DNA of 44,077 nucleotides from Terriglobia bacterium (GTDB lineage: Bacteria; Acidobacteriota; Vicinamibacteria; Vicinamibacterales; CAVVIG01): NCBI GenBank assembly GCA_020073005.1, contig JAIQFX010000064.1, positions 1 through 44,077 of the forward strand. Reading direction: 5' to 3'. Shown here piece by piece: positions 8,234 to 40,882 of the stretch. Made by a program: the position numbers and the translations under genes. Every line of letters begins with the position of its first letter. The first letter of the stretch is position 1. The notes beneath the pieces are model-generated. The model was not told the origin of the DNA. It made no database searches and saw only the letters and a program-made list of their open reading frames with translations.

Positions 8234-8240
8234 CCAGTGA

Positions 8241-8359
8241 CTAACGACTAACGACTAACGACTAACGACTAACGACTAACGACTAACGACCAACGACCAA
8301 CGACCAACGACCAACGACCAACGACCAACGACCAACGACCAACGACCAACGACCAACGA
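8241..8359. repeat. 17-copy perfect heptamer array
   Basis: Seven tandem CTAACGA units (8241-8289) followed without interruption by ten CCAACGA units (8290-8359), all exact, ending one base before the receptor stop triplet. Unlike the related copies at 28963-29050 and 32459-32538, it has no inverted arm. Homogeneous blocks with one switch point suggest recent slippage expansion. Confidence 0.97.
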
Positions 8360-11300
8360 CTAGAACTGGAATCTCAGCGTGAACTGCACCATGCGCATGT
8401 TGTTCGCCTGGGTGTTGATCTGGCCGAACGACGAGTTGCCGAACGACGAGCTCGCCGGCGCCGCCCACTGGACGATGTTGAACATGTTCAGCACTTCGAG
8501 GCGGATGGCCGCCGACGTCGAGCCGCCCGTGTGGACGTTCTTGCTGACGCCGAGGTCGATGTTGTTGCGCCACGGCGACAGCACGCCGGGCAGGATGCGC
8601 GGCGCGTTGCCGAACTGATTCAGCGGCGAGTTCGCGAACGCCGCTTTGTTGTAGTAGACGTTGTCGCTCACGCTCGCGTTGATGCGATCCGTGATGTTGC
8701 CCGGCACCAGGAAGTCCTGGCCGCTGACGAGGTTGGGCCGCTGCGTGCCGCCGTAGAGGAACGCCGTGCCCGTCACGTTCTGCGTGATGCCCATCGGGAA
8801 GCCGCTCTGCAGCGTGACGACCGGCGTGATCGACCAGCCGCCGAGGAGCGCGTCACCGAGCGTGCTGTTGCCGACCTTCTTCCCGAGCCCGAAGGGCAGC
8901 ATGAGGGTCGGCGCGACGACGATCTTGTGCGGCGAGTCGAGCAGGCTCCGGCCGTACTCCGCGTCCGGGTTGTAGTACGGCGATCCGGGAATGACTTCGT
9001 AGTTGTTCTGCAGCCCGGGCGCGCTCGTGTAGTAGTTGCTCGCGCCGAACTGGTTGTCGGTCAGCCGGCTGTACGTGTAGCTGACCTGGCCGCCCCAGAG
9101 CCCGGTCACGCGCTTGCGCAGCTGGAAGATCGCCGCGTGGTACTGCGAGCGCGCGCCGGTCGACTGCGACATGTTGACGTTGGTGAACTGCGGGAACGGC
9201 CGCAGGAGCTGGCCGATCTCGATCGTGCTGCGCGTCGAGAGCGTGCTGCCCGCCGCCGCGATGCCGAAGAACGGATTCGGCACCAGCGTCGACGTCACCG
9301 CCAGCTGGCTCTGGTACTTGGGATCGATCTGGTTGATGTTGATCGATGAGCCCCAGTCCATGTTCGTGCCGGTCAGGCCGGTGTAGCCGATGCCGACGCT
9401 GACGCCGCCCGGCAGCTCGCGCTGCAGGTCGACGGAGTACTGCTGCACGCGCGGCGCGCCCTTGTTCGGATCGATGAAGGTGATGTCGCTGCCCGTGCCG
9501 GTCAGCAGGCCCAGGCTGTTGCCGGTCGGCTTGGTGAGCCCGCTCGGGAACGGGTTGCTCATCGTCACCGTCGGGATGCCGCTCGGCTGCGGGATGTTGG
9601 TCGTGGCCGAATAGCCGATCTGGCCCCAGCTCGTCGTGCCCGCCGCCGGGTAGTTCCACGGCGAGTAGTAGAGGCCCCAGCCGCCGCGCAGCACGGTCTT
9701 GTCGTTGAAGCTGTAGACCGCGCCGGCGCGCGGCGCCGGTTTGATCGCGGGCTGGTTGCCCTGCACCGTCGGCGCGCCGTTGACGCCCGCGAACACCAGG
9801 CCGCCCATCAGCTGCCGCGGCTGCTTGGTGATCGGATCCGTGAACGTCATCATGCTGTTGAGCGGGCTCACGGCCGTCTGATCGAAGTTGACCGAGATCT
9901 GGTCGTTCCGCTCCTGCAGCCCCGTCTCGCGCTCGAGGCGGATGCCGTAGTTGATCGTCAGCTTGTTGTTCACGCGCCAGTCGTCCTGCGCGTAGCCGGA
10001 GAAGTACTTCACGTAGCCGTCGAGATCCTGGTTCAGCGGGACGTTGCCGCTCTGCGGATAGCCCATCAGAAGATCCGCGAGCGCGTTGCCCGTGTAGGTG
10101 CCGGTGAAGCTGAACGTGCCCGTCGACGCGCCGTAGTTGGCCGCCTGCACGCCGATGATGCGGTAGTCGCCGCCGGCCTTCAGGTTGTGCGTGCCGGTCA
10201 GCTTGCTCAGCGTGCCGTTGGCGCCGTACTGGTAGTAGCCGTTGGCCTGCCGCGTCGTCCAGCCCGTGCCCTTGTAGCCGGTGATCGTCATCGACGGGAA
10301 GCGCTGCGTGTCCGACATCTGGCCGAGCAGCGAGCTCGGCCAGCCGAGCGCCGACACGTTGAAGTTCAGCGGGTTGCCGTTGCGGTCGTTCAGGTTGTAG
10401 TTGTCGTCGAACTTGTTGTAGCCGCCGCGCAGCGTGAGCACGGTGGAGGAGTTCAGCACGTAGGTGTTGTTGACGACGAAGGTCTTGATCACGCGGTCGA
10501 GCTGATAACTGCCGCCGACGAAATCGTTCACCGGGTTGTAGTTGGTGCTGGCTTCGTGCGTCACCTGCCGCAGGAAGAAGCCGCTCACCGCCGCCGACGC
10601 GTTGAAGTGGTGATCGATCTTCGTCGTGAACTGATTCGCCTTGTTCGGCAGCAGGTCGGTCATGCCGAAGTTCGACTGCCCGTTGTCGACTTGCGTGTCG
10701 GCCGGCGGGAGATAGCTGGCCAGCTTCACGCCGACCGGATTCAGCCGGTTGGCCGGAATCTGGTTGCCGGGGAACGGGAGGCCCGTCAGCGGGTCCTTAA
10801 TCGTGACCTGCGCGCCGCTGCGCGTGACGCCCTGGAAGTTGCCGGCCAGCTCGGCGTTGGTCGGCACCAGAACCGTGGTCGCCTGCGGCTGATTGTCGAC
10901 GTACTTTTCGCCCGCGAACCAGAAGAACGTGTGGTTCTTGACGATCGGTCCGCCGCCGCCGCCGCCGCCGTCACGCCAGTACTCGGGCACGTTGGCCTGG
11001 CCCTGCAGCTTCGGGATCAGCAGCTCGCTGACCAGCGACTCCGGGCGGAACACCGTGTAGCCCGACCCGTGGAAATCGTTCGCGCCCGACTTCGCGGACA
11101 TGTTCATGACGCCGCCGCCCGTGCGGCCCATTTCCGCGTCGTAGGTGTGGACCTGGACTTTCATGTCCTGAATCGCTTCGATCGTCGGGTTCGTCGACGC
11201 GCGATTCTGCAGGTCCGTCACCGGGAAGCCGTCGACGAGGTAGTTGTTCGCGCGGACCGCGCCGCCGCCCATCGACATGGCGGAGTTGCCGACCTGATCC

Positions 11301-25686: not shown

Positions 25687-26732
25687 CGGAAGTGGGCGTA
25701 CGCCTGGCGCGTCAGCGCGGCGTCGACGGGCGCGCCGGCGCTCGCGCGGCGCAGGAGCACGGCCCGGTCCTCCGTGCAGGTGCCGATGCAGGTGAGCGGC
25801 ACGCCCGCGCGCTCGGCGAGCGCCGTCGCGCGACGCCGCGCGCGCGGCCTGACGGCGACGAGCAGCTCGTAGTCGTCGCCGGCCGTCAACGCCTCGGTCA
25901 TGGCGTCGGCGTGTCGCGACTCGTTCCACGCCTTCGCGCCGGGATCGATGGGCAACGCGTCCGCGTCAATCGTCATTCCCACGCCGCTCGCCTCGGCCAT
26001 GTGGTACGCGGCGTCGGCCAGCCCGTCGCTGAGGTCCATGCAGGCGGATGCGGCACGATTGCGGCCGAGGAGGAGACCGAGCTTCACGCGTGGCTCGGGT
26101 CGCAGGTATCGATCGACACACGCGGCAGCAGCAGAGGTGGCTGGTGGCTGGTGGCTGGTGGCTGCGCGCAGCATCTGCAGTCCCGCCCCGGCCGCGCCAA
26201 GCGTCCCGCTCAGATAAAGCGCGTCGCCGGCGCGCGCGCCGGCGCGCGTGAGCGCCTGGCGCCGCTTGACCGTACCCATCACCGTCACGTCGATCATCAG
26301 CGGCCCCGGCGATCGCGTCAGATTTCCGCCGACGACGTGGAGGCGATGGCGCGCGGCGAGCGCCGTGAAGCCGCCGATGATCGCGTCGAAGTCGTCGAGG
26401 CCGAGCGCGAGCGGCAGCGCCATCGAGAGCAGCGCGAGGCGCGGCGCGGCGCCCATTGCCGCGAGATCGCTCAGGTTGACGGCGAGCGCGCGATGGCCGA
26501 TCGCGTCCGGCGGCACGAACGCGCGGTCGAAGTGCACGCCCTCGATCAGCGCGTCGACGCTGAGCACTTCGGCCCGGCTCCGCTCCGGCTCGACGACGGC
26601 GGCATCGTCGCCGATGCCGACGAGCACCCACGGCGGCGGGGACGGCAGGCGTTCCTGGATGCGGGCGATGAGCTCCGTCTCGGAACGATCAGCGACGGTG
26701 GCTGGTGGCTGGTGGCTAGTGGGTGAGGACAC
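25683..26732 (-). CDS. thiL: thiamine-monophosphate kinase with repeat-encoded N-terminus and loop
   Basis: 349 residues from GTG 26732, five bases after the rny stop. ThiL phosphorylates thiamine monophosphate to thiamine diphosphate. Motifs: LVGIGDDAAVVEP (ATP/Mg site), LSVDALIEGVHFDRAF, LAVNLSDLAAMGAAP, VVGGNLTRSPG, CMDLSDGLADAAYHMA and ALTAGDDYELLVAV. No ATG exists before the conserved part. The GTG places SSPTSHQPPATVA, encoded by GTGGCTG heptamers, at the N-terminus. The same repeat is inserted in the middle (about residues 191-199, SHQPPATSA; four exact GTGGCTG copies at 26137-26164) in the loop after GAAGAGLQMLRAA. All catalytic residues remain, so it may be active. Coupled to DUF2062 by ATGA. 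Confidence 0.9.
   Translation of the reverse strand: MSSPTSHQPPATVADRSETELIARIQERLPSPPPWVLVGIGDDAAVVEPERSRAEVLSVDALIEGVHFDRAFVPPDAIGHRALAVNLSDLAAMGAAPRLALLSMALPLALGLDDFDAIIGGFTALAARHRLHVVGGNLTRSPGPLMIDVTVMGTVKRRQALTRAGARAGDALYLSGTLGAAGAGLQMLRAATSHQPPATSAAAACVDRYLRPEPRVKLGLLLGRNRAASACMDLSDGLADAAYHMAEASGVGMTIDADALPIDPGAKAWNESRHADAMTEALTAGDDYELLVAVRPRARRRATALAERAGVPLTCIGTCTEDRAVLLRRASAGAPVDAALTRQAYAHFR
26137..26164. repeat. four exact GTGGCTG heptamers inside thiL
   Basis: GTGGCTG x4 in tandem, read on the minus strand as SHQPPAT. A second cluster at about 26698-26720 covers the thiL start region. Same family as 2498-2526, 32956-32983 and 38253-38328. Confidence 0.95.
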
Positions 26733-28386: not shown

Positions 28387-28580
28387 GAAAAACGCCCCGC
28401 TTTGCCGTGTGGGGAGGTCGATGAACCTGCGTAAGCAGGTGGAACCGCTCGAAAAGCCGCGCTTCAGGCTTCCTCGTTACAGAGGCATGCACACCACGCG
28501 GCGTCGCGACTCACTTTGATGAAACGTTGGCTCAAACGAGCCTACCGCCATCACGCGCAAAGCAGGGAACCCAAACGCTG
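28367..28580 (-). ncRNA. ssrS: 6S RNA
   Basis: A 354-bp gap between zapA and rny holds a structured RNA on the minus strand. The closing stem is CCCTGCTTTGC (28567-28557) with GCAAAGCGGGG (28405-28395), extended by GCGTG/CACAC-type pairs. Internal landmarks resemble bacterial 6S RNA: GTGCATGCCTC, GAGGAAGCCTGAAGC, and TTCCACCTGC...GCAGGTTCA, the last like the E. coli 3' apical hairpin TTCACCTTGAACC. A long, mostly helical rod with a central bubble is expected; it would bind housekeeping RNA polymerase holoenzyme. Its own promoter and a terminator flank it, and 6S beside zapA is a known arrangement. Ends are inferred from the promoter and terminator. Confidence 0.82.
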
Positions 28581-32458: not shown

Positions 32459-32463
<5 letters not shown>

Positions 32464-32538
32464 GTTGGTCGTCAGTCGTTGGTCGTTAGTCTAGCCGGGA
32501 CCAACGACTAATGACTAACGACCAATGACCAACGACTA
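32459..32538. repeat. TCGTTGG/TCGTTAG heptamer repeat with inverted arms between rplT and pheS
   Basis: ATGGTCGTTGGTCGTCAGTC then GTTGGTCGTTAGTC, centre TAGCCGGG, then ACCAACGACTAATGACTAAC and GACCAATGACCAACGAC. Same heptamer family as 8241-8359 and 28963-29050. It fills the gap and seems to have replaced the pheS start. Confidence 0.9.
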
Positions 32539-32955: not shown

Positions 32956-32983
32956 TACCAGCCACCAGCCACCAGCCACCGAC
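32956..32983. repeat. AGCCACC repeat upstream of rplT
   Basis: TACCAGCCACCAGCCACCAG followed by CCACC, three to four AGCCACC units directly behind the rpmI stop codon. Member of the TGGCTGG family. Confidence 0.85.
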
Positions 32984-33795: not shown

Positions 33796-33802
33796 CCTCC
33801 TT
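33796..33802 (-). promoter_or_regulatory. ribosome binding site that fixes the infC start
   Basis: AAGGAGG, 5 bases before ATC 33790 and overlapping the thrS stop TAA (33803-33801). It is the strongest Shine-Dalgarno in this cluster and has no AUG-type codon at proper spacing. Confidence 0.85.
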
Positions 33803-35768
33803 AACGTTCCTGCGCTACTGAGAGCTGAGAGCTGTCGGCCGAGAGCGTACCCTTCCGCGAAATCTCTTCGCGCGCGGACGCGATGAATCCGTCGATCGGG
33901 CTCGCGCCCTGATCGCCGCCGGTGCGCGTCCGCACCGACACGGTGCCCTCGGCCGTTTCGCGGTCGCCGACCACGAGCATGTAGGGCACCTTCTGCAGCT
34001 GCGCCTCCCGGATCTTATATCCGATCTTTTCCTGCCGGTCGTCGACGTCGACCCGCAGGCCGTTCTCGTGCAGCCGGGCCCGGACCGACCGCGCGTAGTC
34101 GAGGTGGCGATCCGCGATGGGCAGCACGACCGCCTGCACCGGCGCCAGCCAGAGCGGGAACGCGCCGGCGTAGTGCTCGATCAGCAGCGCGACGAACCGC
34201 TCGAAGCTGCCGAAGATTGCGCGGTGGATCACCACCGGCCGGTGCTCGGTGTTATCCGCGCCGATGTACTTCAGCTCGAAGCGCTCCGGCGCGTTGTAGT
34301 CGAGCTGGATGGTCGCGCACTGCCACTTGCGCCCGATCGCGTCGGTGATGTCGAAGTCGATCTTCGGGCCGTAGAACGCGCCGTCGCCCTCGTTGATCGT
34401 GTAGGCCTGCGCCGCGCGTTCGAGCGCCGTCTTCAGCTGCGCCTCGGCGGAGTCCCACGTCGCGATCTCGCCCATGAACTCGGCGGGGCGCGTCGACAGC
34501 TTCGCGGTGTACTCGAGACCGAAGTCGCCGTACACGCGCCGCACGAGCCCCAGCATCCGCTCGACTTCGTCGCCGATCTGGTCCTGCGTGACGAAGCAAT
34601 GGCCGTCGTCCTGCGAGAACTGGCGGACGCGCGTGAGTCCCGACAGCACGCCCGACGCTTCGTTGCGATGCAGCGGCGTCTGCTCGTGATACCGGAGCGG
34701 CAGCTCGCGATAGCTGTGCACCTGGCTGGAGTAGAGCAGGTAGTGGCCCGGGCAGTTCATCGCCTTCATGCCCATCTGCTCGTTCTCGGACTCGACGAGG
34801 AACATGTTCTGGCGATAGTGCGCCCAGTGCCCGGACGTCTCCCACAACGCCTTGTTGTAGACGAGCGGCGTCTTGACCTCGACGTAGCCGTTCGGAATCA
34901 GCACGCCGCGCATGTAGTCGGCGAGCGTGTTGTAGAGCGTGGTGCCCTTGTCCTGCCAGAACGTCGCGCCGGGCGCCCACTGATGGAAGGTGAACAGCCC
35001 GAGGTCGCGGCCCAGCTTGCGATGGTCGCGCTTCTTCGCTTCCTCGATCTGCGTGAGGTGCGCCTTCAGTTCCTTCTCGGACAGGAACGCGGTGCCGTAC
35101 ACGCGCTGCATCGGCTGGTTGCGCGCGTCGCCCTTCCAGTACGCGTTCGAGGTCGTCAGCAGCTTGAACGCCTTCAGCTTCGCGGTCGACGGCACGTGCG
35201 GCCCGACGCAGAAATCGATGAAGGTCTGGGGATCCTTGATCGTGTAGCAGGAGACTTCGGCCTGGCCTTCGGTCTTCTCGTCGATGAGCTGCACCTTGAG
35301 CGGCTCGCCGCGCTTCGCGAAGAACTCCTTCGCTTTCTCGCGCGGCCACATCTGGCGCTCGTAGATCAGATCCTGCGCGGCGAGATCGCGCATCTTCTGT
35401 TCGATCGCTTCGAGATCCTCGGGCACGAACGGGCGCGGGACGACGAAATCGTAGAAGAAGCCTTCGTCGGTCGCCGGACCGATGCCGCACTGCACGCCGG
35501 GAAACATCTGCGTGACCGCGGCCGCGAGCAGGTGAGCGGTGCTGTGGCGATAGAGCGCGAGCGCTTCGGGGCTCCGGTCGGTGACGATCCGGACCGACGC
35601 ATCCTGCTTCAGCGGATAGGCGAGGTCGACCAGCTTCCCGTCGACGACGCCCGCCAGCGCCGCCTGCGCCAGGCGCGGAGAGATACTCTCGGCGACGTCG
35701 CGGACCGGTGCCCCCACAGGCAAGCTGCGGCTCGATCCATCCGGAAGGGTGATCGTGATCTGACTCAT
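33801..35768 (-). CDS. thrS: threonine-tRNA ligase
   Basis: 655 residues from ATG 35768 ([20 protein letters not shown]). Domains: TGS (1-62), second N-terminal editing/SAD-type domain ([32 protein letters not shown]), class II core (about 245-540: [60 protein letters not shown], and [10 protein letters not shown]) with the zinc Cys/His set, and an anticodon-binding domain ([20 protein letters not shown]). A longer frame from TTG 35825 is repeat sequence (AGCCGACAGC units) and is rejected, although the Shine-Dalgarno for ATG 35768 is poor. The C-terminal tail [14 protein letters not shown] is encoded by the same AGCTGTCGGC repeat that lies upstream. Confidence 0.96.
33815..33847. repeat. GAGAGCTGTCGG repeat forming the thrS tail
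   Basis: CTGAGAGCTGAGAGCTGTCG then GCCGAG, decanucleotide-like units within the thrS 3' end. Related units flank the other end of thrS at 35790-35860. Confidence 0.7.
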
Positions 35769-35789
35769 TCGGGAATGAAAGAAGCCGTC

Positions 35790-35860
35790 GGCTTTCAGCT
35801 GTCGGCTGTCGGCGAAATTCCTCAAGCTGTGAACTGAGAGCTGTTAGCTGATAGCTGTTT
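35790..35860. repeat. AGCTGTCGGC/AGCTGT repeat between tRNA-Val and thrS
   Basis: GGCTTTCAGCTGTCGGCTGT, CGGCGAAATTCC, then GTGAACTGAGAGCTGTTAGC and TGATAGCTGTTT. AGCTGT is itself a near-palindromic core, so the stretch can fold on either strand. It adjoins the tRNA 3' CCA. Confidence 0.75.
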
Positions 35861-35936
35861 TGGTAGGCACGGGTGGACTCGAACCACCGACCTCCTGCGT
35901 GTCAAGCAGGCGCTCTAACCTCTGAGCTACGCGCCT
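35861..35936 (-). tRNA. tRNA-Val (anticodon GAC)
   Basis: 76 nt with encoded CCA. Acceptor AGGCGCG pairs with CGTGCCT (one G-T), discriminator A. D-arm GCTC...GAGC, anticodon stem CCTGC/GCAGG with loop TTGACAC (anticodon GAC, reads GUC/GUU), T-arm GGTGG-TTCGAGT-CCACC. The 5' flank between it and the S41-like gene has TATACT (35979-35974), a possible -10. Confidence 0.96.
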
Positions 35937-35985: not shown

Positions 35986-37155
35986 TCAGGCGGCTTTCTT
36001 CGCGCTGAGGTGCGCCAGGGCCTTGTCCAGAACCGGATCGGCCGCGGGCGCGGGCTGGCCGAACTCGACGTCCGGTTCGTCAACGGCCACCGTGGGTTCC
36101 AGGCCCTTCTCGTGCAGCGGCGTGCCGGACGGCGTGAGGTAGCGGGTCGTCGACAGCCACAGCGCGGCGCCGTCGGGCAGCTTCACCAGCTGCTGCAGGG
36201 CCGCGCGACCGATGGTGCGCTCGCCGACAAGGTCCGCGCGCTGGTTGCCGGCCACCGCCGAGGCGAAGAGCTCCGACGCGCCCGACGTGCCCGTGTCGAT
36301 CAGCACGACCATCGGCAGCGCGATCGACCCGTCACCGGCTCCCGCCGCGATAATTTCGCGCGGGCCGCTTCTCGTCTCGCGCATCGCGAGCGTGCCTTTG
36401 CCCACGAACAGCCGCGCGAGCGCCAAGCCGTCATCGAGCGAGCCGCCGACCGCTCGTCGCACGTCGACGACGAGTTTCGTCGCGCCGCCTTTCGTGAGAT
36501 CGGCGATCTGAGACGTCACCTGCGCCGCGGACGTCGGGCCGACCACGGCGACGCGGACGTAGCCCACGCCGGCGCCCGCCATCCGGCCGCTGACCATCGA
36601 CGCCGGCTCCGCCTCGCGCGTCATCTCGACGACGTGCGGATCGGCCGCGTTGCCGCGGATGATCGTCACCGACACCTTGGTGCCCGGCGCGCCGCGCAGC
36701 GCGCGGCTGCCTTCCCAGACCGACATCTCGCGCGTCGGCGTGCCGTTGATCGCGCGAATGTAGTCGCCGGTCCGCAGTCCGGCTTTGGCGGCCGGTGAGT
36801 TGTCGCGCGCGGCGATGACGCGCAGGTAGTACTGCCGCGTGATCTCGAGGCCCACGCCGCCGGCGGGCAGCGCCGCGCCGCTCTCGACCAGCTTCGCCTG
36901 GTCGGGCGTGAGGTACGCGCTGTCGGGATCGAGGCTGTCCACGAGTCCGTGCATCGCGCCGCTCATCACTCTGTCGACGTTCACGTCTTCCACGTACGCG
37001 CTCGTGATCAGCCCGACGACATCGTCGAAGATTGCGAGGTGCGGATAGGCCCGTGCCTGGCCCGCCATCACTTTGCCGAGGAAGCCGCCGACGATCGCGA
37101 ACGCGATGACCGGCGCCGAGATCGTCATGACGATGAGCCGGGTTCGTGAAGACAT
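35986..37155 (-). CDS. S41 (CtpA/Prc-like) peptidase homolog lacking both catalytic residues
   Basis: 389 residues from ATG 37155, preceded by AAGGGTG. Order: N-terminal anchor (MSSRTRLIVMTISAPVIAFA), helical region with SAYVEDVNVDRVMSGAMHGL VDSLDPDSAYL, PDZ domain (about 95-175: GGVGLEIT, KAGLRTGDYIRAINGTPTRE), then the S41 core with GYVRVAVV, LVVDVRRAVGGSLDDGL and GTSGASELFASAVAGNQRAD LVGERTIGRA. In Prc and CtpA the nucleophile is the first Ser of SASE and the base is Lys 25 residues later in GKG. Here these positions are Gly292 (GASE) and Arg317 (GRA), at exactly the right spacing, and NPGG is AVGG. Predicted to be a non-proteolytic binding or regulatory protein. It follows the EnvC-like gene, a common CtpA context. 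Confidence 0.87.
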   Translation of the reverse strand: MSSRTRLIVMTISAPVIAFAIVGGFLGKVMAGQARAYPHLAIFDDVVGLITSAYVEDVNVDRVMSGAMHGLVDSLDPDSAYLTPDQAKLVESGAALPAGGVGLEITRQYYLRVIAARDNSPAAKAGLRTGDYIRAINGTPTREMSVWEGSRALRGAPGTKVSVTIIRGNAADPHVVEMTREAEPASMVSGRMAGAGVGYVRVAVVGPTSAAQVTSQIADLTKGGATKLVVDVRRAVGGSLDDGLALARLFVGKGTLAMRETRSGPREIIAAGAGDGSIALPMVVLIDTGTSGASELFASAVAGNQRADLVGERTIGRAALQQLVKLPDGAALWLSTTRYLTPSGTPLHEKGLEPTVAVDEPDVEFGQPAPAADPVLDKALAHLSAKKAA

Positions 37156-37174
37156 AGGCACCCTTACCGTGACG

Positions 37175-38350
37175 TTATCGTTTCCGAAGCCATTGTAGCG
37201 GGTCGACGGGTTGACCGTCGATGCGCAATTCGAAATACAGGCCGGTCGTGCCCGACGGCGTGGGACCGGCGGTCCCGACGACCTGCTCGCGCTCGACACG
37301 GTCTCCCTTTTTGACGTCCACTTCGAGCAGATCGCCGTAAAGGCTGTAGGTCTGCGGGCTGTGCTCGAGGATCACCAGATTTCCGTAGCCGGCGAAGGCA
37401 CCGGCAAAGGCGACCACGCCGCCGTGCACGGCGCGCGCCTCGGCGCCGTCGGCGGTCGCGATCTCAAGGCCGCGGGCCTCCGATCCTCTATTGAAGCGGC
37501 GCTGCACGCTGCCCGCCACCGGCCATTCGAGGTCGCCGCGGAACGGCCGCAGCGGCAGACTGGCCGGATCCGCGATCGGCACGCCGTTGGCGAGATCACG
37601 CAGCTCGAGCTGCAGCTTCTGCTGCGCCGCCTGCAGCTCGCCGGCGAGCTGCGCGTTCAAATCGCGCTGGCGATCGATGTCGCGCACGAGGTTGGCGCGC
37701 GCCTGCGCCGCGCGATCGAGGGCGGCTGCGGCCTTCTGCGCCGCGGCGCGAATGGCGACGAGCCGCTTCTCGCGGTCCTCGAGCGCCGCGCGGCTCGTCT
37801 TCAACGCGGCGAGAGTGCGCTGATAGTTCGCGACGCGATCGCGATCGAGCTTCGCGAGGACCGCGACGGTGCGCGACGCCTGGCCGATCCGCGCCAGGTC
37901 GGGCGTGGACAGCAGCAGGCGCAGGTAGCGCGCCTGGCCGAGCTTGTACATCTCGACGAACCGCCCGCGCACCTCGGGCCGTTCGGCCTGTTCCGACTGC
38001 TCGAGGGCGGTCATCTGGCGCGTGGCCTCGGCCAGATCGGCCTGCACGCTCGTGACCTCGCCGTCCACGCGCGCGAATTCCTCCGCTTTGATCTGGCGAT
38101 CGATCTCGAGCTTGCGGAGATCGCCAAGCAGCGTGCGCTCTTCGGACGCGAGGCGGTCGGCTTCGCGCTGCAGGGCCTGCAGCCGATCGGTGGCGCGGCG
38201 CGCGAGCGCCTCGGTGCGCGCGCGGTCGGGTTGCTGCGCGAACGTGGCCGGCGTCAGCCACCAGCCGCCAGCCACCAGCCACAATGCGGCAGCCAGCCAC
38301 CAGCCACCAGCCATCAGCCACCAAGGTCTCCTAGAACAGCGGCTTGCCAT
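37175..38350 (-). CDS. EnvC-like murein hydrolase activator (coiled coil plus M23/LytM domain)
   Basis: 391 residues from ATG 38350, which has CAGGAG 4 bases upstream and overlaps the preceding gene by 20 bp; ATG 38314 is an alternative. The signal peptide MASRCSRRPWWLMAGGWWLA then AALWLVAGGWWLTPATFAQ is encoded by TGGCTGGTGGCTGG repeats. A long coiled coil (about 45-265) precedes a LytM domain (about 280-390): LEWPVAGSVQRRFNRGSEA, LEIATADGAEARAVHGGVVA, FAGYGNLVILEHSPQTYSLY and TGLYFELRIDGQPVDPLQW. The zinc ligands of active M23 enzymes (HxxxD, HxH) are not conserved (for example LEIAT, FELR), as in EnvC, which activates amidases. It likely acts in septal peptidoglycan splitting. Confidence 0.88.
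   Translation of the reverse strand: MASRCSRRPWWLMAGGWWLAAALWLVAGGWWLTPATFAQQPDRARTEALARRATDRLQALQREADRLASEERTLLGDLRKLEIDRQIKAEEFARVDGEVTSVQADLAEATRQMTALEQSEQAERPEVRGRFVEMYKLGQARYLRLLLSTPDLARIGQASRTVAVLAKLDRDRVANYQRTLAALKTSRAALEDREKRLVAIRAAAQKAAAALDRAAQARANLVRDIDRQRDLNAQLAGELQAAQQKLQLELRDLANGVPIADPASLPLRPFRGDLEWPVAGSVQRRFNRGSEARGLEIATADGAEARAVHGGVVAFAGAFAGYGNLVILEHSPQTYSLYGDLLEVDVKKGDRVEREQVVGTAGPTPSGTTGLYFELRIDGQPVDPLQWLRKR
38253..38328. repeat. AGCCACC/TGGCTGG repeat encoding a signal peptide
   Basis: GTCAGCCACCAGCCGCCAGC, CACCAGCCACAATGCGGCAG and CCAGCCACCAGCCACCAGCC, then ATCAGCCACC. About nine AGCCACC-like units, read on the minus strand as WWLMAGGWWLAAALWLVAGG WWL. Confidence 0.92.
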
Positions 38351-40379
38351 CGATCTCCTGCGGTATCGGCAGACCGAAGTATTTCAGGACCGTCGGCGCC
38401 AGATCCATCACCGACGCGGCCAGGCCCGCGGGCAGCGGGCGGCTCGAAATGAGCGTGCCCGGCGTCGTCTTGTAGTCGAACGATCCGTGATCGCCCGACC
38501 ACTTCTTCATGTTCGGGTACACGATGCCCGGCGGCGAGCCGCCGAGCGTCGATTGCCAGGACACGCGGTATCCGTCAGCCAGGCCGACCTGCAGTTCGGC
38601 GGCGTTGCCGAGAAACGCGCCGGTGTAAATCTCGTCGCGCTTGTAGACCGCGTCCACCATCCGCGTGCCGTTTGCAGGATCCGTCATCGTCAGCAGGCGC
38701 GCCGCGAGGTCGTCCTGCACGGCTTTTGAGTCCGCGCCCGGCGCGACGATGCCGTGGCCTTCCCGGCCTTTGAGGTTGATGTAGATCTGACCGAGGCCCA
38801 TCGCGTACGCCTTCGTCCGCGACCAGTCGACGTTTTCCCAGAACGTGCCGCCGCCGAACAGATCCTGCAGTTTCTTCTCGCCCGGCGCCTGGCCCTGCAG
38901 CGTCATGAACCCCTGCTGCACGAGCCACGTGTTCAGGTTCACGGACTGCCGGAACGAATGAAAGCCGTGGTCCGACACGATCAGCACGGGCGTGCCGGGC
39001 TCGAGGCGCGACACGACTTCGCCGACGAAGTCGTCGCAGCGCCGGTAGACGCGCTCGATGGCGTCGCCGAATTTCGCGGCCAGCGCCTTGTCGTACATCG
39101 GATGCGTCGGATCGATCAGCCGCCACATCATGTGCTGGACGCGGTCCGTCGATTCGATGACGCCGACCAGCAGGTCCCATTGTTTCGTGTCGAGCCGCTG
39201 GAGGATGACCTGCGCGCGGTCGTCGAACGCGCGGTACAGATCGTCCATGAACGTCTTCTCGTCGATCCGATCCTCGTTGAGCGGCCACGTGGCCTCGGCC
39301 CAGCCCAGCGTCCGGTACGGACCCAGCCGCTCGTAGAGATCCGCCGAGAACGACGCGGGCGAGGACATCGGCGCCGGCGGATTGTCCGGCTTCCAGTTCA
39401 CCGGCGAGATATAGAGCTGCAGCTCCGGTCCGGCGCCGACCAGATAGAGTTGCGCCATACCGTGCACGCGAACCAAGAAGTTGATGCTGAAGTCCAGGTT
39501 GATCCACTTGCTCCATTCGTGCTCGGAGAGATGGATCGAGCTGTCGCCGAGATCGATCGTCGCGGACTTGCCGGCGCGGTTCCAGTGGATCGACATCGGC
39601 AGGCGGATGTCCTCGCGCGCCTCGAGCTCGGCGATCTTCATAACGTCCGGCGTCTTCGCGCTCCGCGCTTCGCGCAGTTGCTGGCGCACGATCGGATTGG
39701 GCGGCCCGACGAGCTCGGTGCGGGCGGTGTCGCCCTCGAACACCAGCCGCTTCAGGAGGCCGCCCATCTCGGTGCTACCTTCTTCGTAGCGGCTGAGATC
39801 GGTGCCGAAGTAGTTGAACGTCCCCATCGTGCCGCGGATGTCGGGCAGCGGGAGACCGGCGAGCATCTCGCCGTTCGGGACGTCCTCGGGCGGGAACGTG
39901 ACGGGCACCGTGAGCACGCTCGATCGGACGCCCGCGCGGCCGGCCGTGACCCAGAACGACGTGCCGCCGCGGATCGACGTCAGCTGCGGCTTCGCGATCG
40001 GAATGAAATTGAAGAGAAACCGGGGCGGCTCGCGGTGCACCATGCCGAGATCCGGCAGGTACGTCGAGGTGTCGCGGATCAGGAAGTCGTAGATGTTGTG
40101 CTTGCCGGCGTTGACGCCGGTCGCGAACGACGCCCACGCTGTCGGCGATTCGGGCGAATGCGTCGTCATGAGCGAGTGCACGCCGCCGCCGGCGCTCGCC
40201 AGCTTCTTCAGGTTGGGCAGCTTGCCGTCGTCCATCCATTTCCGGACGAGCCGGGGATCGAGGCCGTCAAACCCGAGGATGACGAGCTTCTGGTGAAACT
40301 TTTCAGGCGGCCGGCGCGTGCCGCAAGCGGCCGCCGCGCCAAGACAAACGACGAGCAGGACGAGACAGCAACGTTTCAC
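38331..40379 (-). CDS. alkaline-phosphatase-superfamily phosphodiesterase lipoprotein
   Basis: 682 residues from GTG 40379 (VKRCCLVLLVVCLGAAAACG), with a lipobox-like AAAC|G, so probably membrane-anchored after lipidation. Type I phosphodiesterase/nucleotide pyrophosphatase fold: KLVILGFDGLDPRLVRKWMD with the first metal Asp, then HSPESPTAWASFATGVNAGK HNIYDF with Thr/Ser nucleophile region; later LLVGVIESTDRVQHMMWRLI DP, LIVSDHGFHSFRQSVNLNTW (metal Asp-His) and KKWSGDHGSFD. The set is typical of AlkP-like enzymes acting on phospho-esters; substrate unknown. A start at ATG 40424 would put the TATAAT box inside the gene and is rejected. Overlaps the EnvC-like start by 20 bp. Confidence 0.87.
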   Translation of the reverse strand: MKRCCLVLLVVCLGAAAACGTRRPPEKFHQKLVILGFDGLDPRLVRKWMDDGKLPNLKKLASAGGGVHSLMTTHSPESPTAWASFATGVNAGKHNIYDFLIRDTSTYLPDLGMVHREPPRFLFNFIPIAKPQLTSIRGGTSFWVTAGRAGVRSSVLTVPVTFPPEDVPNGEMLAGLPLPDIRGTMGTFNYFGTDLSRYEEGSTEMGGLLKRLVFEGDTARTELVGPPNPIVRQQLREARSAKTPDVMKIAELEAREDIRLPMSIHWNRAGKSATIDLGDSSIHLSEHEWSKWINLDFSINFLVRVHGMAQLYLVGAGPELQLYISPVNWKPDNPPAPMSSPASFSADLYERLGPYRTLGWAEATWPLNEDRIDEKTFMDDLYRAFDDRAQVILQRLDTKQWDLLVGVIESTDRVQHMMWRLIDPTHPMYDKALAAKFGDAIERVYRRCDDFVGEVVSRLEPGTPVLIVSDHGFHSFRQSVNLNTWLVQQGFMTLQGQAPGEKKLQDLFGGGTFWENVDWSRTKAYAMGLGQIYINLKGREGHGIVAPGADSKAVQDDLAARLLTMTDPANGTRMVDAVYKRDEIYTGAFLGNAAELQVGLADGYRVSWQSTLGGSPPGIVYPNMKKWSGDHGSFDYKTTPGTLISSRPLPAGLAASVMDLAPTVLKYFGLPIPQEIDGKPLF

Positions 40380-40398
40380 GGTGTGATGGGGAGAAGAA

Positions 40399-40404
40399 AT
40401 TATA
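40399..40404 (-). promoter_or_regulatory. -10 box of the phosphodiesterase gene in a divergent promoter region
   Basis: TATAAT on the minus strand in AT-rich GATGTTATAATTTC, 20 bp before GTG 40379, implying a leader of about 12 bases. The -35 is poor (ACCATG at 17 bp). The same AT-rich island (40397-40408) probably also serves ruvX on the plus strand. Confidence 0.5.
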
Positions 40405-40432
40405 ACATCTGCAGACGGAGACATGGTGTGAC

Positions 40433-40882
40433 GTGGTGAACGGCGTGACCGGACGGGTGCTGGCGATCGATTTCGGGACACGGCGCGTCGGCCTCGCGAT
40501 CAGCGATGCGTCGCGGACGCTCGCGCGTCCGCTCGAGGCGATCGCCGTGCGCGGCGGCGACGATGCGGTCGATCGCGTCGCGCGGCGGATCGATCAGCTC
40601 GCGGCCGAAGACGATGGGCTCGCGATGATTGTCGTGGGACTGCCGACGCGGCTCGATGGCACGCCGAGCGACGAGACGGCGCGCGTGACGGCGTTCATCG
40701 ATGCGCTCAGGCGCCGCACGTCGCTGACTATCGTGACGGAAGACGAGCGGCTGAGCAGTCGCGAAGCCGAGAGCCGGCTCTCGGTCGGCGAGCGTGATTG
40801 GCGCCGCCGGAAGATGCGCCTCGACGCCGCGGCGGCGGCCGTCGTGCTGCAGGACTACCTGGATCGGAGGCCGTCCAGGTGA
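40433..40882 (+). CDS. ruvX: RuvX/YqgF-family pre-16S rRNA nuclease or resolvase
   Basis: 149 residues from GTG 40433; nearby in-frame GTGs at 40436 and 40445 cannot be excluded. RNase H-like fold: VLAIDFGTRRVGLAISD (first catalytic Asp), LAMIVVGLPTRLDGTPSDET, TIVTEDERLSSREAESRL (second acid) and RKMRLDAAAAAVVLQDYLD (third acid). In E. coli YqgF matures the 16S rRNA 5' end. Its stop overlaps the mltG start as GTGA, so the two are translationally coupled, a frequent ruvX-mltG pairing. Confidence 0.92.
   Translation: MVNGVTGRVLAIDFGTRRVGLAISDASRTLARPLEAIAVRGGDDAVDRVARRIDQLAAEDDGLAMIVVGLPTRLDGTPSDETARVTAFIDALRRRTSLTIVTEDERLSSREAESRLSVGERDWRRRKMRLDAAAAAVVLQDYLDRRPSR

Follow-up and report, generated by a model that had tools for sequence, protein, structure and literature searches.

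A conserved and very probably catalytically dead CtpA relative in Vicinamibacterales, retained with and without EnvC

The window, by which we mean the whole 44,077-nucleotide stretch of DNA analysed here, encodes a relative of the carboxyl-terminal processing proteases (CtpA, MEROPS S41) that we regard with high confidence, judging from sequence, as a conserved pseudoprotease, a catalytically dead member of the CtpA group. The domains and the fold of that group are present, while the catalytic serine and lysine are not, and a protease fold that lacks its catalytic residues and is retained under selection is what is meant by a pseudoprotease. Because the residues needed for cutting have been lost and yet the protein has been kept, pseudo-CtpA probably works by binding proteins rather than by cutting them. 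At a probability of roughly 0.6, we read it as a membrane-anchored periplasmic PDZ scaffold that would bind the C-termini of envelope proteins and leave them uncut, a role suggested by the retained PDZ domain and fold. Cell wall hydrolases are under the control of CtpA-type proteases, whose rules for choosing partners are an active question.

Gene, domains and predicted structure

The longest open reading frame of the gene covers 35986-37299 on the minus strand (437 aa) and begins with a GTG at 37299. The true start is likely the ATG at 37155 (Met49 of the longer frame), because it lies 19 bp past the stop codon of the preceding EnvC-like gene and because the matches of relatives either start near this ATG or cross stop codons ahead of it. 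The features of the gene are as follows.

35986..37155, minus strand: pseudo-CtpA gene, S41 family, 389 aa, starting at ATG 37155
37054..37149, minus strand: N-terminal hydrophobic helix, residues 3-34 (AlphaFold helix; hydrophobicity judged by eye)
36601..36873, minus strand: PDZ domain, about residues 95-185 (PDZ_6 match, PDZ-only PDB matches over 95-185, and conservation)
36082..36567, minus strand: Peptidase_S41 domain, residues 197-358 (Pfam match)
36280..36282, minus strand: codon of Gly292, at the catalytic Ser position (HMMER alignment with CtpA and orthologs)
36205..36207, minus strand: codon of Arg317, at the catalytic Lys position (HMMER alignment with CtpA and orthologs)
36193..36195, minus strand: codon of Gln321, counterpart of the triad Gln331 (Gln in 70/70 full order rows)
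35992..36036, minus strand: C-terminal helix, residues 374-388 (conserved; the structure alignment continues through the corresponding end of CtpA)

Both Pfam domains score above their cut-offs, Peptidase_S41 with 117 bits (cut-off 24) and PDZ_6 with 47 bits (cut-off 27). Among the NCBIfam models the protein falls near the C-terminal processing peptidases and below every cut-off, reaching 200.7 bits for TIGR00225 against 218.6 and 178.7 bits for the CtpA model against 625. Orthologs share a conserved PDZ block, RQYYLRV..ARDGSPAA, which reads RQYYLRVIAARDNSPAA in the window protein.

The AlphaFold model (pLDDT 87.4, pTM 0.80, residues 26-39 poor) begins with the helix of residues 3-34, likely a membrane anchor, and is CtpA-like for the remainder. 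Its best fold match is Helicobacter pylori CtpA (Z 36.9), followed closely by Pseudomonas aeruginosa CtpA (Z 36.2), and the initial annotation was right that PDZ and fold are retained. The interphotoreceptor retinoid-binding protein (IRBP, or RBP3), a non-proteolytic retinoid carrier, is also among the matches (7jti, Z 18.6), together with a weak sequence match (9frx, E 1.3e-4). These matches would suit an S41 cleft that now serves as a binding site for a ligand other than a protein, a reading that we consider improbable given the far better match to CtpA (Z 36-37) and the presence of a PDZ domain.

Catalytic positions

In an HMMER alignment to P. aeruginosa CtpA, Gly292 is matched to the position that distinguishes chain 7rpq from chain 7rqh, the latter being the S302A mutant according to its entry title, and is hence aligned with the catalytic Ser302. 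Arg317 is aligned with the lysine of the FGKG motif. The triad of P. aeruginosa CtpA is described as Ser302-Lys327-Gln331 (PMC8764530), and the corresponding positions of the window protein are Gly292, Arg317 and Gln321, with spacings of 25 and 4 residues that equal those of P. aeruginosa CtpA. The initial annotation had placed glycine and arginine at these positions between 36282 and 36205, with the 25-residue spacing preserved and NPGG replaced by AVGG. Each of these points holds, and both ends of the interval are exact.

Could the protein still cut by means of other residues? A certain amount of evidence leans this way: Ser291 is a serine in 49/70 orthologs, Gln321 is invariant in the 70 full rows, and a serine stands at the nucleophile position itself in 3/73 rows of the order. 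A search for a replacement Lys, Ser or Cys over 71 orthologs, however, found no lysine above 51/71, a value reached by K378 of the C-terminal helix, the best-conserved lysine of the whole protein; Ser294 is a serine in just 7/70. Relocated catalytic residues were rejected on this basis. A working dyad of Ser291 or Ser294 with a lysine, which the initial annotation had named as the finding that would speak against a pseudoprotease, is accordingly judged unlikely, and we give very little credence to a protease that operates through other residues.

Distribution of the changed site

Orthologs of pseudo-CtpA are present in 59 of 60 relatives, the single miss being a genome that is 66% complete, and those inspected are 43-87% identical over most of their length. 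The alignment for the order Vicinamibacterales (class Vicinamibacteria, phylum Acidobacteriota), whose sample took in 14 of 33 further order genomes, consists of 74 rows from 73 genomes (in one genome the gene lies in two pieces on separate contigs), of which 73 rows have letters at the site. Gly+Arg is found in 55 of these, Gln+Arg in 4, Ser+Arg in 3, Ala+Arg in 2, and Ser+Lys in none; the lysine position is occupied by Arg in 66 rows, Leu in 5, Ile in 1 and His in 1. Since Gly+Arg occurs in 55/73 rows and Ser+Lys in 0/73, the change is neither chance nor a sequencing slip. The sharing of the changed site by orthologs, proposed at the outset as a check, is thus confirmed, and the absence of Ser+Lys from every row speaks for the pseudoprotease first suggested. 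The PDZ domain is likewise conserved in the order, with G102 in 70/70 rows, Y110 in 68/70, S120 in 69/70 and A122 in 69/70.

The same site is altered in the related groups f17-f19 (order-level groups of the class), where 18 loci from 17 of 21 genomes (G065, G073, G077 and G086 were left out) show Gly in 18/18, Arg in 15, Leu in 2 and Ser in 1 at the lysine position, and Ser+Lys in 0/18. Judged from these alignments, the loss of serine and lysine is common to the order and to groups f17-f19, and it is old. A further group, f16, sampled in 8 of 10 genomes (loci L092-L099), has Cys+Arg in 8/8 loci and a proline at the third triad position; all eight are without EnvC upstream. These cysteines at the nucleophile position, like the three Ser+Arg rows of the order, count against the dead-site reading.

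Outside the class, 40 short S41 loci were chosen by hand, each genome contributing its shorter S41 ORF; this non-random sample left out at least four genomes with a short S41 match (G151, G156, G169 and G170). Three of the 40 have Ser+Lys, namely L123, L133 and L137, the last with a standard NPGG site. L123 and L133, both of family f41, are EnvC-adjacent S41 proteins in which the ancestral form may have survived in an active state. Of the 40 phylum loci, 17 have a LytM gene directly upstream, and 15 of these 17 lack Ser+Lys, as read from an alignment that is less sure at 24-36% identity. In a tree of 105 rows, the order rows fall on one side of a branch with support 99, groups f17-f19 have support 91 and the long active paralogs 100. 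The tree leaves 37 of 102 inner branches open and carries a warning that long branches meet; it leaves open the date of the Ser+Lys loss, and L123 and L133 can be placed neither as survivors nor as regains.

Selection on the gene was assessed by dN/dS (NG86) for 14 gene pairs, four of which gave values (0.156, 0.140, 0.081 and 0.172). Because the ten other pairs ended in mathematical errors, these values cover the closer pairs only. A pseudogene or a sequencing error was rejected, because orthologs have the change in common, reading frames are uninterrupted and the four measured pairs show low dN/dS. Pseudo-CtpA evolves faster than the active long CtpA paralog, with a mean identity of 0.56 vs 0.69 across 11 genomes and a lower identity in 54 of 55 genome pairs; this, too, speaks against the preferred reading.

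Genomic neighborhood

The genes that surround pseudo-CtpA are listed here.

38331..40481, minus strand: type I phosphodiesterase (AlkP superfamily) gene, upstream of the EnvC-like gene, with a lipobox-like N-terminus by eye
37175..38350, minus strand: EnvC-like gene, its LytM (M23) domain degenerate, ending 19 bp before the ATG of pseudo-CtpA
35861..35936, minus strand: tRNA-Val(GAC), downstream of pseudo-CtpA
33801..35825, minus strand: thrS, downstream of tRNA-Val and followed by infC and rplT

The zinc-ligand motifs of LytM domains are changed in the EnvC-like protein, as read by eye from an alignment, from HxGxD to ARGLE and from HLH to GLY. By these motifs its LytM domain is degenerate and non-catalytic, as in the amidase activators. 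The position of pseudo-CtpA directly after this gene was correctly called in the initial annotation, as was the notion that an active CtpA can adjoin envC: P. aeruginosa is described as having an operon envC-ctpA-PA5135 (PMC12569750).

Within the order, thrS is found no more than 2.5 kb downstream in 64/67 loci with enough sequence and tRNA-Val within 600 nt in 49/67. Since thrS has this position in only 2/38 phylum loci, it is a marker of the locus rather than a partner. The phosphodiesterase is upstream in 31/58 order loci with enough sequence, 8/13 loci of groups f17-f19 and 7/40 phylum loci, and it directly precedes pseudo-CtpA in four EnvC-less loci (L113, L055, L057 and L107).

Two other kinds of element were observed in the window. 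A 6S RNA (82.7 bits) is encoded on the minus strand at 28390-28571. Tandem arrays with 7-base units, differing in sequence and mostly intergenic, occur at 8239-8360 (GACCAAC x17.4), 26136-26164 (GGTGGCT), 26697-26722 (TGGTCGT), 32459-32538 (GACTAAC), 32957-32980 (ACCAGCC), 35787-35813 (GTCGGCT) and 38255-38323 (CAGCCAC), the last of which encodes the unusual N-terminus, rich in W, L, A and G, of the EnvC-like protein.

Joint absence of EnvC and FtsX

The neighborhood raises a reading in which pseudo-CtpA is dedicated to EnvC, binding it or its amidases and regulating peptidoglycan splitting through FtsEX-EnvC. EnvC (the LytM gene) is directly upstream in 57/72 order loci with enough sequence and in 12/15 loci of groups f17-f19; the window's genome also encodes FtsX and two Amidase_3 proteins; and P. 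aeruginosa CtpA, encoded in the envC operon, is described as degrading cell wall hydrolases (PMC12569750, PMC8764530). EnvC as the sole partner was the initial expectation, and it was weakened by the 15 of 72 order loci that lack EnvC and keep pseudo-CtpA.

A profile search of the 15 whole genomes without an upstream EnvC found no full-length EnvC. The best matches were about 103 bits or less and mostly consisted of the M23 domain alone, where full-length EnvC scores 427-520 bits with the same profile in four EnvC-bearing genomes. The match in G010, the longest of the partial ones at profile positions 197-409 (100 bits), may be a diverged EnvC relative. The FtsX_ECD domain is matched in 57/73 order genomes and in none of the 15 EnvC-less ones, in a search that a diverged FtsX could escape, some accepted matches being weak (E about 1e-6). 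The states of EnvC and FtsX agree in 71/72 genomes: 56 have both, the window's genome (G000) among them, 15 have neither (G055, G044, G045, G054, G035, G057, G090, G105, G109, G116, G121, G103, G119, G115 and G010), and one, 81% complete, has EnvC and no FtsX match (G011). In six independent lineage pairs (starred branches), FtsX and EnvC are missing together (sign test, p 0.031), the tree behind these pairs having been built from pseudo-CtpA itself rather than from species markers. Taken together, the 15 joint absences suggest that the FtsEX-EnvC division module has been lost naturally.

In all 15 of these genomes pseudo-CtpA is open, at 382-401 aa, and none has Ser+Lys; six of them, all of family f10, have Leu or Ile instead of Arg. 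The PDZ residues G102, Y110, S120 and A122 are kept in 15/15. EnvC-bearing rows have 88 conserved positions; 62 of them remain at 90% or more in EnvC-less rows, and when an EnvC contact patch was sought among the 88, only F19 of the membrane helix fell below half. With just this one position affected, no EnvC contact patch emerges. The sole EnvC-less pair measured (L055/L057) has a dN/dS of 0.08. A scan for a replacement gene, covering seven upstream ORFs of six EnvC-less loci and one phosphodiesterase ORF, found no shared partner: five ORFs had no Pfam family, one matched Cons_hypoth698 and one was an NAD kinase, in a setting where spurious ORFs are common at this GC.

An EnvC-dedicated regulator would be expected to occur only with EnvC, and 15 genomes in which neither EnvC nor FtsX was found show otherwise. 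Because pseudo-CtpA is open in all of them, it is taken to have some role independent of FtsEX-EnvC, as indicated by profile searches of draft genomes. The link to EnvC that had been suggested for the window therefore stands in part: the adjacency is real and frequent, while the genomes without EnvC and FtsX keep the protein. The further suggestion, that regulating murein hydrolases by way of EnvC is what the protein is for, finds no support in that form, the gene being open and conserved in 15/15 EnvC-less genomes. Dedication to EnvC is thus an unlikely account of pseudo-CtpA.

Active CtpA in the same genomes

The presence of a second, intact CtpA in the genome had been proposed as a check, and one was found. 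Of three S41 matches in the window's genome, one is the window gene and another is a CtpA on contig C56 (L001) with intact Ser and Lys, away from the pseudo-CtpA locus. The third, on contig C36 (L003, 1-1981), is a weak, partial match in an open frame of 178 aa where the contig ends; it apparently belongs to another S41 branch. In relatives the long CtpA is 540-600 aa in length and about 30% identical to pseudo-CtpA, and all 23 distinct paralogs examined (11 plus 14, with two genomes shared) have the Ser...Lys pair. From these sequences, the active proteolytic job is presumably done elsewhere, by the long CtpA.

Might pseudo-CtpA then be a regulatory subunit of the long form, a permanently resting partner that co-assembles with it into dimers or hexamers, tuning or targeting the protease? 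An active long CtpA accompanies it in the window's genome and in 14/15 EnvC-less genomes, each with Ser and Lys 25 residues apart, and the conserved C-terminal helix aligns with that of CtpA. In H. pylori CtpA, only one subunit per N-terminal dimer is described as active (PMC12749690), and an always-resting partner would fit such an arrangement. Set against this are the identity of just about 30%, the greater length of the long form, and one genome (G054) that keeps the pseudo form with no long CtpA found. That genome is 90% complete, and EnvC and FtsX were not found in it either. We regard the subunit as a doubtful explanation, ahead of dedication to EnvC.

Proposed role

The scaffold reading remains the one that we prefer. 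The N-terminal helix would anchor pseudo-CtpA to the inner membrane and place its PDZ and S41 domains on the periplasmic side. The conserved PDZ domain makes C-terminus binding, as first suggested for the window protein, plausible; the PDZ domain and perhaps also the old substrate cleft would bind the C-terminal tails of envelope proteins. With these tails held uncut, pseudo-CtpA could act as a scaffold, an adaptor or a decoy. Where EnvC exists, the two proteins are probably made together, and EnvC would not be an essential partner.

A broader proposal is offered with low confidence. A dead CtpA kept by the whole phylum could form a second, non-cutting arm of envelope proteostasis, membrane-anchored and capturing C-terminal tails, in which the old active site has been rebuilt as a binding pocket (the glycine opening it and Arg317 holding the carboxylate) and which either competes with the active long CtpA or feeds it. 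It would have originated in the envC operon and later become independent of FtsEX-EnvC, a module that several lineages discarded whole.

Retention of a natural dead CtpA by an entire order, and by almost all of the phylum sample, would mean that the PDZ-S41 body serves a purpose other than cutting, in a large group of mostly uncultured bacteria. Annotation pipelines would probably label such a protein a protease. Since EnvC and FtsX are repeatedly absent together, natural knock-outs are at hand in which the EnvC-independent role of pseudo-CtpA may be approached.

Comparison with known systems

In the openly licensed PMC papers searched, no earlier description of a conserved bacterial CtpA with a dead site was found. 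The closest described counterpart in gene context is P. aeruginosa CtpA, which works with the adaptor LbcA and resembles the window protein in fold, PDZ domain, triad spacing and an envC-adjacent gene (PMC12569750), at about 29% identity in the structural alignment. It differs in that it cuts cell wall hydrolases by means of Ser302-Lys327-Gln331 (PMC8764530), where the window protein has Gly-Arg-Gln. The best structural match, H. pylori CtpA (Z 36.9), is likewise active, unlike the window protein; its lab-made form S300A/K325A/Q329A (PMC12749690) is comparable to the window protein in two of these three substitutions. The long CtpA of the same genome shares the S41 and PDZ domains and differs in its intact Ser and Lys, its identity of about 30% and its separate locus. 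Lastly, IRBP/RBP3 provides a precedent for an S41 fold without protease function, in an animal protein that has no envC context.
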